Source: Phycisphaerae bacterium
GTDB lineage: Bacteria; Planctomycetota; Phycisphaerae; Sedimentisphaerales; Anaerobacaceae
DNA: 32,806 nucleotides
NCBI GenBank assembly: GCA_030608075.1
Contig: JAUWIU010000012.1
Coordinates: 1-32,806 of the forward strand
Reading direction: 5' to 3'
In this document: positions 9,431 to 15,779 of the stretch, piece after piece
Layout: each line of letters starts with the position of its first letter
Numbering within the stretch: position 1 is the stretch's first letter
Program-made: the position numbers and the translations under genes
The notes under the pieces: generated by a model
Database searches by the model: none
Seen by the model: the letters and a program-made list of their open reading frames with translations, nothing else
What the model was told of the DNA's origin: nothing

Positions 9431-10255
9431 TCACAATGGATGCATTGTTTCGCCAGAATCGTCGAAGTCAGCGACCTTTTCTTGATCAGCCTCTCCTTGT
9501 GCGGTTTTAATTACTTTTCGAGGCCTTTTCCTCTTTGGCGCGAAGTCTATTTTTATTTTGGACAACTCAATACCCGCGTTTTCGTTTAGCAGCTTTTTCA
9601 TGCCGGTTACTAAGTCCTCAGGTGCAACCATTACGCCTGTATTCTTTCTCAGAACACGACGCAGGACTCTTATCGTCTCTTGGCTGACTAATGCATCCAA
9701 GAGACTCTCAGGCGAAAGAACGCTTGCTTTCTCCCAGAGTTTTTTGAGACTTCCCTTCCTCACTTGCCGGTAGCTTATGAACGCAAACTTGTCTGCTAAC
9801 TCGCCTATATCGTCGGTCAACAGGTTCCACTGTTCAATCAATTTCGACTTCGGTGGCTGACCAAACTCAACATGGTATAACCGCCAGTCTCGGCTGTTTG
9901 TAAGCAGAACCCATTCGCAACCGGAGTCAATAGCGTAAGATGTTACTTGCTTGAGATGTTTCAAGGCAAGGTCGACCCCGACGCGTTTCAATTCAAGCAT
10001 GATAAGAGGCTCGGCATCAGGCCCGGATTCGAGTTGAACCGCAAAATCGACATGCTCTGTCTCGCCAGCGCCTCTGATAGCCCTTTCGCGGCTAAGATGG
10101 ACAAACGCATCGTACCCCATAACCCTCTCGAATATGCGCTCAACCCTCCTCCTGGTTTCAGCTTCATTGCCATCTGCTTTCATTAGCTTGTCAATCATTC
10201 TACGGGCATCAGCAATTCTCCGTCTAAGCTCCTTGTCAATCTTCTTGCCAGCCAT
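9431..10255 (-). CDS. HSDR_N-type PD-(D/E)XK nuclease-like protein
   Basis: A 274-residue protein starting at ATG 10255 (MAGKKIDKEL), with AAAGGA six bases upstream; the longer open frame is unlikely to be used. An N-terminal helical stretch is followed by VERIFERVMGYDAF, then VDFAVQLESGPDAEPLIMLELKRVG. The D...E-x-K arrangement matches the nuclease core of type I restriction subunit N-terminal (HSDR_N) proteins. SYAIDSGCEWVLLTNSRDWRLYHVE is also typical of that group. The C-terminus is basic (KRKRPRKV). Standalone members are common and often annotated as restriction-associated, but no methylase or specificity gene is nearby, so a defence role is uncertain. Confidence 0.7.
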   Translation of the reverse strand: MAGKKIDKELRRRIADARRMIDKLMKADGNEAETRRRVERIFERVMGYDAFVHLSRERAIRGAGETEHVDFAVQLESGPDAEPLIMLELKRVGVDLALKHLKQVTSYAIDSGCEWVLLTNSRDWRLYHVEFGQPPKSKLIEQWNLLTDDIGELADKFAFISYRQVRKGSLKKLWEKASVLSPESLLDALVSQETIRVLRRVLRKNTGVMVAPEDLVTGMKKLLNENAGIELSKIKIDFAPKRKRPRKVIKTAQGEADQEKVADFDDSGETMHPL

Positions 10256-10579
10256 TTTCATTCCTTTCAAAAGTTCTAGGAGGTCTGCTTTGGTAAAAAT
10301 ATACTCATTTTCAACGGGGAAAACAAGGAAAAATGTAGCCAATTCCTGTAGCGTCTTTTGTCAAGCCCACGCCAGCCGACGCAAGGGATAAGCCCTCACC
10401 GGAATGATGTTAGTGCCAAGGAGGTTCATGTGGGATTTTCGCGCTTGGAGATATGTTGCCTATTAGGTGCAGCCCAAGGCACGCGCCAGCCTGCCAGCAA
10501 GGACCCCATTGACCCCGGCACTGGGTACCCCCACAATACCAGCTTTCGGGCATTCTGGGCTGTCTTATCGGCCGTTATC
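10256..10579. other. Spacer without a recognisable gene
   Basis: No convincing coding frame, RNA gene or repeat was seen between the HSDR_N-like gene start and the tandem 11-bp repeat at 10580. Small open frames here lack ribosome sites and protein-like composition. Confidence 0.5.
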
Positions 10580-10601
10580 AAATGGTAACGAAATGGTAAC
10601 G
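10580..10601 (+). repeat. Tandem 11-bp direct repeat
   Basis: AAATGGTAACG occurs twice back to back (10580-10590 and 10591-10601). It lies 48 bp upstream of the -35 of the orphan promoter at 10650. The 11-bp period is one DNA turn, so it could be an operator for that promoter. Confidence 0.55.
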
Positions 10602-10649
10602 AAAAAAGTTGCTGATGCAGATTTTTTTATCATTGTGCGGTTTTTGGCG

Positions 10650-10677
10650 TTGACCGGCTCAGCACAGCAGCTATAAT
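10650..10677 (+). promoter_or_regulatory. Strong orphan promoter
   Basis: TTGACC (10650-10655), a 16-bp spacer and a perfect TATAAT (10672-10677). No coding sequence follows on this strand before the terminator at 10705-10757. Confidence 0.7.
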
Positions 10678-10683
10678 GAACAA

Positions 10684-10757
10684 GTAACAATGTGGAATTA
10701 AGTGTACCCCTGCTCATCATCACTCCTCTCCTCCTCCAAAGCAGGGGTATTTTTTTT
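10684..10757 (+). ncRNA. Candidate small RNA, about 74 nt
   Basis: Transcription from the promoter at 10650-10677 would start near 10684 and end at the terminator, giving a short RNA without a usable reading frame. Its 3' half is a hairpin with a 25-nt loop containing CUCCUCUCCUCCUCC (10723-10737), which is complementary to GGAGG ribosome sites. Pyrimidine-rich terminator loops are the seed regions of some known small RNAs, such as RepG of Helicobacter. The promoter, terminator and loop are seen; regulatory function is inference. Confidence 0.5.
10705..10757 (+). terminator. Rho-independent terminator of the small RNA
   Basis: TACCCCTGCT (10705-10714) pairs perfectly with AGCAGGGGTA (10740-10749) and is followed by eight T (10750-10757). 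The T-run is only on the + strand, so it does not serve the lipoprotein gene on the opposite strand. Confidence 0.75.
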
Positions 10758-11082
10758 ATCTGCCTGCAGCCGGTTGCTGCTTTTGCATCTGCTCAATCAT
10801 CTTTTGAAGCTCAGCCATTTGCTTTTGCGCTTTTTCGCGGCATTCCGCACAAAGCGTTACCCTTTTGCCGTCAGGTCCAATCGCCGGTATCTCTTTGCCG
10901 CACACGGCACACTTGGTCATCTCGACCCCTGCTGGCGTTTTTTTCGGCTCGACCTTCACGGCAGTCTGTGTCGACTTGACTTCGCCCGTCTTGCCGGTAT
11001 TCTCACCCTTTTTGTCTTTTGATTTGCACCCGACCACGCCGAGCACCATCAAGGCCAGAGACAAAACGATTATTTTTTTCAT
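10756..11082 (-). CDS. Lipoprotein with a zinc-ribbon-like domain
   Basis: A 108-residue protein with AAAGGAAC before the start. A lipobox (VLGVVGCKS) places the lipidated Cys at residue 19. A Lys/Thr-rich linker is followed by CAVCGKEIPAIGPDGKR and LCAEC, a C-x2-C-x16-C-x2-C pattern that should hold one zinc ion. The C-terminus is a Gln/Lys/Met-rich helix (AELQKMIEQMQKQQ). A tethered envelope zinc-ribbon protein is the best description; its partner is unknown. The stop codon lies within the T-run side of the + strand terminator. Confidence 0.75.
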   Translation of the reverse strand: MKKIIVLSLALMVLGVVGCKSKDKKGENTGKTGEVKSTQTAVKVEPKKTPAGVEMTKCAVCGKEIPAIGPDGKRVTLCAECREKAQKQMAELQKMIEQMQKQQPAAGR

Positions 11083-11190: not shown

Positions 11191-11337
11191 CGATACTTAT
11201 TCTACTTACTGTTGCGGAAAGCGACAACCGATGATGTCACCCCTGCGAAAGCAGGGGTCTAAAGCCAAAAAACTGGATTCCCGCTTCCGCGGGAATGACA
11301 AATCCTGTTTCCGCAACAGATACTATCTAACGAACTC
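11191..11337. repeat. MITE-like palindromic repeat, copy A
   Basis: Inverted ends CTGTTGCGGAAA (11209-11220) and TTTCCGCAACAG (11308-11319) enclose two hairpins. One is ACCCCTGC-GAAA-GCAGGGGT (11239-11258). The other is ATTCCC-8 bases-GGGAAT (11277-11296), the same pattern as the dRS3 repeat of Neisseria. The sequence is shared with 15593-15779, including about 17 bases on each flank. It encodes nothing. Confidence 0.7.
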
Positions 11338-15592: not shown

Positions 15593-15779
15593 CGATACTC
15601 TAATTTACTTCCTGTTGCGGAAAGCGAAAACCAACGATGTCACCCCTGCCCCTGCTTACGCAGGAGTAAACTTGCCCCCGCGAAAGCGTCGAGCAGGGGT
15701 CTAAAGCCAAGAAACTGGATTCCCGCTTCCGCGGGAATGACAAACGCTGCTTCCGCAACAGATACTAATCTAATGAACC
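15593..15779. repeat. MITE-like palindromic repeat, copy B, in the purF leader
   Basis: Same element as 11191-11337: inverted ends CTGTTGCGGAAA (15612-15623) and TTCCGCAACAG (15751-15761), and the dRS3-like ATTCCC-8-GGGAAT (15719-15738). Relative to copy A about 40 bases are inserted inside the ACCCCTGC hairpin loop. It lies directly upstream of purF, between the start codon and the putative promoter. Confidence 0.7.

Follow-up and report, generated by a model that had tools for sequence, protein, structure and literature searches.

Small RNAs that pair in trans with messenger RNAs (mRNAs) usually have the protein Hfq as a helper. Helicobacter pylori is not known to have Hfq, and its small RNA RepG uses the C/U-rich loop of its terminator as a seed; in cyanobacteria, NsiR1 (RF02399) is a short single-hairpin RNA that occurs in tandem copies. 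A further possible seed is CCUCC, which forms the core of the anti-Shine-Dalgarno (anti-SD) sequence of 16S RNA. The cuckoo RNAs, or alpha-r14 family, of alphaproteobacteria, among them NfeR1 of Sinorhizobium and the CcsR-like RNAs of Rhodobacter, carry the anti-SD motif CCUCCUCCC in the loops of hairpins with variable stems, and NfeR1 uses its CCUCCUCCC seeds to repress ntrBC (PMC10746234, PMC3927594; further source on these RNAs, PMC10253847). RepG targets a G repeat in mRNA (PMC8295292). Here we describe a locus at 10650-10757 in a 32,806-nucleotide (nt) stretch of DNA from a Phycisphaerae bacterium (contig JAUWIU010000012.1), referred to below as the window. The locus is very probably a real small RNA gene, and its product may be a trans-acting anti-SD RNA that works without Hfq.

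The unit begins with a sigma-70-type promoter on the plus strand (10650-10677), composed of TTGACC (10650-10655), a 16-nt spacer and TATAAT (10672-10677). Placing the start by the -10 box predicts a small RNA of about 74 nt (10684-10757, plus strand). In it, the 5' arm TACCCCTGCT (10705-10714) and the 3' arm AGCAGGGGTA (10740-10749) of a terminator stem enclose a 25-nt pyrimidine-rich loop, CATCATCACTCCTCTCCTCCTCCAA (10715-10739), and the stem is followed by a T8 tail (10750-10757), all on the same strand. Within the loop, the stretch CTCCTCTCCTCCTCC (10723-10737, plus strand) is the putative anti-SD, assigned from CCUCC enrichment across the family. Promoter and loop were read directly from the sequence, and the two arms are supported in addition by folding and by compensatory changes in the family. 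An earlier sequence-only reading had reported the promoter, a perfect 10-bp stem and the T8 on one strand, and direct reading found all of them exactly where it had put them. Its statement that no coding frame is present was right in that the unit has none of its own; the sole plus-strand frame between promoter and terminator is a shadow open reading frame (ORF) antisense to the 108-amino-acid gene at 10756-11082. The T-run exists on the plus strand only and the nearest upstream gene (9431-10342) lies on the minus strand, and the terminator therefore most likely serves only the 10650-10677 promoter. The locus has its own promoter and its own intrinsic terminator, as befits a trans-acting anti-SD small RNA in the functional sense.

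Taken singly, these parts are not striking. Promoter-like sites number 30 in 20 kb against 16 expected, the one at 10650-10677 being among only three that match 11 of 12 bases. The 74-nt RNA folds as one hairpin at -17.2 kcal/mol, mildly better than its shuffles (z = -2.35). Upstream, the 11-bp tandem repeat that the sequence-only reading had likened to an operator is real: AAATGGTAACG stands twice at 10580-10601 (read directly, strand not assigned, candidate operator), three extra matching bases continue it, and dinucleotide shuffles yield no such repeat. Promoter and fold are each mildly unusual alone; the predicted gene rises above chance because relatives have kept the module as a whole.

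A DNA search of 60 relatives returned mostly noise and a few true partial matches (stem CCCCTGC/GCAGGGG, C/U loop, T-run), including two tandem copies in one relative genome with TTGACC-N16-TATAAT before each. Among 89 genomes from the planctomycete family to which the window belongs, a covariance model seeded with four hairpins, the window's included (R1), found matches in 80 at E<=0.5 and in 70 at E<=0.01, and many of these genomes hold 5-25 copies; this family includes the metagenome-assembled genome (MAG) Phycisphaerae bacterium SG8_4. Outside the family, R1 gave weak matches in 13 of 72 genomes from other families of the order and in 20 of 293 genomes of a phylum-wide sample. Model R2, built from 120 members, matched 74 of 87 family genomes, with up to 26 copies each, and more weakly 33 of the 72 genomes in the rest of the order. 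A hold-out model (R3), made with 89 members and with the window excluded, gave window positions 10705-10756 on the plus strand a score of 56.6 bits (E 7.7e-13), against 13.8 bits for the second-best site there; the hold-out is not perfectly clean, as its members had been found and aligned with R1, one of whose four seeds is the window. At the Rfam 15 gathering threshold the hairpin was unmatched in the window and in 20 further loci, and membership of any Rfam family was rejected, gathering and relaxed thresholds having given chance-level matches only, NsiR1 among them. Nor did Rfam and a limited search of the open-access literature yield a described family of comparable trans-acting small RNAs in planctomycetes or Phycisphaerae. 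The predicted multi-copy RNA family is undescribed, and it lies mainly within a single planctomycete family. At three loci, copies stand in tandem, 240-350 nt apart (L010:1242 and 1501; L020:1263 and 1501; L043:2489 and 2835), with a TTGAC-type promoter before each copy in L010 and L020 and weaker -35 boxes in L043 (TTCACT, CTTGCA).

The conservation was set against chance in several ways. Across 108 distinct sequences, 99.8% of stem cells are paired, six of the eight modelled pairs show changes on both sides (0 of 500 shuffles), and cells with such changes number 40 against 8.2 in shuffles; as the alignment was fitted to the model structure, these counts lean towards the structure. A search pattern that calls for a pyrimidine loop has matches in 27 of 89 genomes and its reversed control in none, and the same pattern with a purine loop occurs only twice, both times as the opposite strand of a member. 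Of 113 members, 37 have a sigma-70-type promoter matching at least 10 of 12 bases within 75 nt upstream of the hairpin, compared with 0.7 expected from shuffles; in the adjoining stretch farther upstream, the figure is 1 of 110. Among members with a promoter of at least 9/12, the spacing between the -10 box and the beginning of the match concentrates at 20-29 nt. Finally, an alignment of 12 sites spanning about 370 nt shows that conservation covers the promoter, the leader AGCTTTTTCATTTTT, the stem and a loop of 26 nt, and that both flanks have diverged. The sequence-only reading had called the locus an orphan unit encoding a candidate CCUCC-loop small RNA and had suggested a search of related planctomycetes. 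The comparison supports that candidate: dozens of genomes share the combination of promoter, stem and pyrimidine loop, and at the level of the family, in genomes from genera other than the window's, promoter, loop and terminator are conserved, with compensatory changes in the stem.

The loops themselves favour CCUCC, which is present in 77 of 95 distinct loops of model-found members compared with 18 in shuffles, a count open to ascertainment bias, in that the model might favour CCUCC loops. For this reason, the loops were also collected with a pattern that requires pyrimidines only, and here CCUCC was present in 43 of 51 distinct loops, against 18.7 expected under a null that preserves the purine/pyrimidine pattern of each loop. 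A search for Hfq (PF17209), positive in five control genomes, found none in the 89 family genomes, which are mostly incomplete MAGs, 32 of them being at least 90% complete. Comparison has established the unit as a gene, the conservation of its stem and loop, the bias towards CCUCC and the undetected Hfq; beyond this, we infer that the unit is transcribed from the start placed above into a short unpaired 5' leader and a single hairpin. The hairpin would double as intrinsic terminator and as display of a 20-35-nt pyrimidine loop with CCUCC. This loop would seed on G-rich sites, pairing in trans with Shine-Dalgarno (SD) or other purine-rich sites in the start regions of selected mRNAs, and pairing there would block translation with no need for Hfq. 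For this mechanism as a whole, we estimate a probability of about 0.6.

Measurements at start regions bear on this proposal in both directions. Figures from loci chosen by a GGAGG-rich pattern (the G000 loci) are biased, and sets not so chosen were used. Strong SD motifs precede 34 of 156 ORFs at family loci, compared with 5-8 in controls. The window loop reaches -12 kcal/mol or better at 24-28 of 204 start regions against 4-12 elsewhere, and its binding there slightly exceeds that of shuffled loops. Several results weigh against the proposed mechanism. For two other loop sub-classes, binding to start regions does not exceed that of shuffled loops with matching composition. No long complementary target was found in the window's own genome (32 matches vs 28 in the control, with up to 3 mismatches), nor was one found in seven genomes for a conserved 22-nt loop stretch. 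In the 12-site footprint, the exact loop is kept over more bases than an anti-SD would require, and the window copy is not syntenic with any relative examined, its neighbour genes not being found beside the relatives. The pairing with GGAGG sites proposed by the sequence-only reading is plausible, and CCUCC enrichment favours it. The mechanism we favour is a short seed directed at SD-like sites.

Some members differ from the window's type and form what we call class B, in which a second hairpin and GGAAGGAGG lie upstream. The element GTTACATT-N13-GGCAC was found in 22 of 115 members, mostly about 100 nt before the hairpin. In both strands of 398 kb (795,320 bases) it has only 18 occurrences, all within loci fetched for their hairpins, and within these loci the sequences tie it strongly to class B. 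The order in this class is a promoter-like GTTACATT-N13-GGCACTTAATTATAG about 100 nt upstream, then GGAAGGAGG, the second hairpin and the CCUCC-loop hairpin (L039:4044, L056:372, L191:2242, L209:373, L236:3453 and others), and its GGAGG could pair with its own CCUCC loop.

How else could these observations be explained? A live rival, in our view unlikely, is that the RNA is real and that a protein with affinity for pyrimidines (a cold-shock protein, ribosomal protein S1 or Rho, for instance) docks on its loop, the many copies acting as a sponge in the way CsrB acts on CsrA. The copy number of up to 26, the keeping of entire 26-nt loops beyond the CCUCC core, the two sub-classes that bind start regions no better than composition and the failure to find a long mRNA complement would all suit such a protein partner; however, CCUCC is over-represented even with the purine/pyrimidine pattern kept, and a protein that binds pyrimidines in general would have no need of this. 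A different idea is that CCUCC loops pair mainly with RNAs of their own superfamily, class B carrying GGAAGGAGG, in mutual sequestration or in a switch by internal pairing. GGAGG does stand within 75 nt upstream of the stem in 23 of 115 matches, compared with 4 in the next 75 nt, and a promoter-like element particular to class B is conserved there, but most members have no GGAGG, and only one copy was found in the incomplete genome of the window, with a transcript that lacks it; we regard this idea as improbable.

Two further explanations fare worse. Were the hairpin an ordinary intrinsic terminator or a mobile-element repeat with a promoter-like sequence upstream by chance, one might point to the only mildly unusual fold of the single sequence and to CCCCTGC/GCAGGGG, which also occurs in window palindromes (11231-11260) and in scattered unrelated bacteria. 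The co-occurring promoter, the strand-specific loop, the compensatory changes and the footprint speak against it, as do the lack of an adjacent upstream plus-strand gene in need of termination and the mostly weak matches outside the order, and we consider this explanation very improbable. It is harder still to believe that, instead of working in trans, the transcript affects the gene convergent to it (10756-11082) through overlap of the 3' ends or through transcription interference. The T-run overlaps the stop codon of this gene, and a downstream gene is convergent in 18 loci; yet the convergent genes vary by lineage, and the conserved part is the loop, not the overlap.

The convergent neighbour in the window is a lipoprotein-like ORF of 108 amino acids on the minus strand with two CxxC motifs, without a match in Pfam. 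Elsewhere, most of the 12 footprint sites adjoin the gene of a sigma-54 response regulator that resembles NtrC, and at several of them a sensor kinase gene lies on its far side; both family names are taken from the sequence as read. Members convergent to this regulator gene were seen in several genera (L029, L050, L054, L192, L204 and others; L251-L266), often with an acyltransferase-like gene on the other side. At orthologs of the NtrC-like gene in other genera and families no member was found, and in the window's own genome no ortholog was found at the threshold used, nor is one adjacent to the window copy. The RNA is therefore not tied to this gene, and the two-component link, real in 18 loci of some genera, was rejected as a general context. 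Regulation of the start site of the NtrC-like regulator itself was likewise rejected, since no clear SD is present at that start.

The window comes from a MAG of 1.5 Mb that is 67% complete and in which the segment is single-copy. Palindromes ACCCCTGCGAAAGCAGGGGT and ATTCCCGCGGAAGCGGGAAT at window positions 11231-11260, 11277-11296 and 15719-15738 resemble dispersed intergenic repeats; the one at 11231-11260 has the CCCCTGC/GCAGGGG stem motif, without a pyrimidine loop and without a T-run. The same stem is found in a hairpin of Porticoccaceae/SAR92 gammaproteobacteria whose loop ends in ACUCCCCCUCCUUAC, like the 16S 3' end, and this hairpin is kept while most flanks differ (L072, L077, L079, L110, L115, L121, L139, L142 and similar loci). 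It had no Rfam match in the three loci scanned (L072, L136, L142), and it is possibly an independent anti-SD RNA.

It is tempting to speculate, although we find it doubtful, that one planctomycete family in which Hfq is undetected runs an expanded set of short anti-SD RNAs, up to about 25 per genome, as a translation-control network, with mutually pairing GGAGG and CCUCC members and two promoter types, the housekeeping one and GTTACATT-N13-GGCAC. If true, an Hfq-free, multi-copy, lineage-specific anti-SD family would suggest that regulation by CCUCC loops arose independently of the alphaproteobacterial cuckoo RNAs. The member loci provide a precise list for testing in metatranscriptomes.

Among the known systems, NsiR1 does not include the window RNA as a member, the match being weak (14.2 bits vs a gathering score of 39). 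The cuckoo/alpha-r14 RNAs display an anti-SD in hairpin loops, as the predicted planctomycete RNAs may also do, and some planctomycete members adjoin an NtrC-like regulator gene. They differ in their architecture, the window RNA folding as one hairpin and not as several: the planctomycete RNA has a single loop in a terminator hairpin, on a well-conserved stem, and this loop is longer and varied around CCUCC. The CCUCC core is present and enriched in the planctomycete loops, but CCUCCUCCC itself is not their shared motif; these RNAs also occur without detectable Hfq and without an Rfam match, and the associated gene for a DUF1127 protein belongs to the CcsR branch. With RepG, the window RNA has in common a C/U-rich loop inside the terminator hairpin; RepG differs in targeting variable homopolymeric G repeats, and it is not known to be a multi-copy family. 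The nearest working analogues of the predicted window RNA are the cuckoo/alpha-r14 RNAs and RepG.
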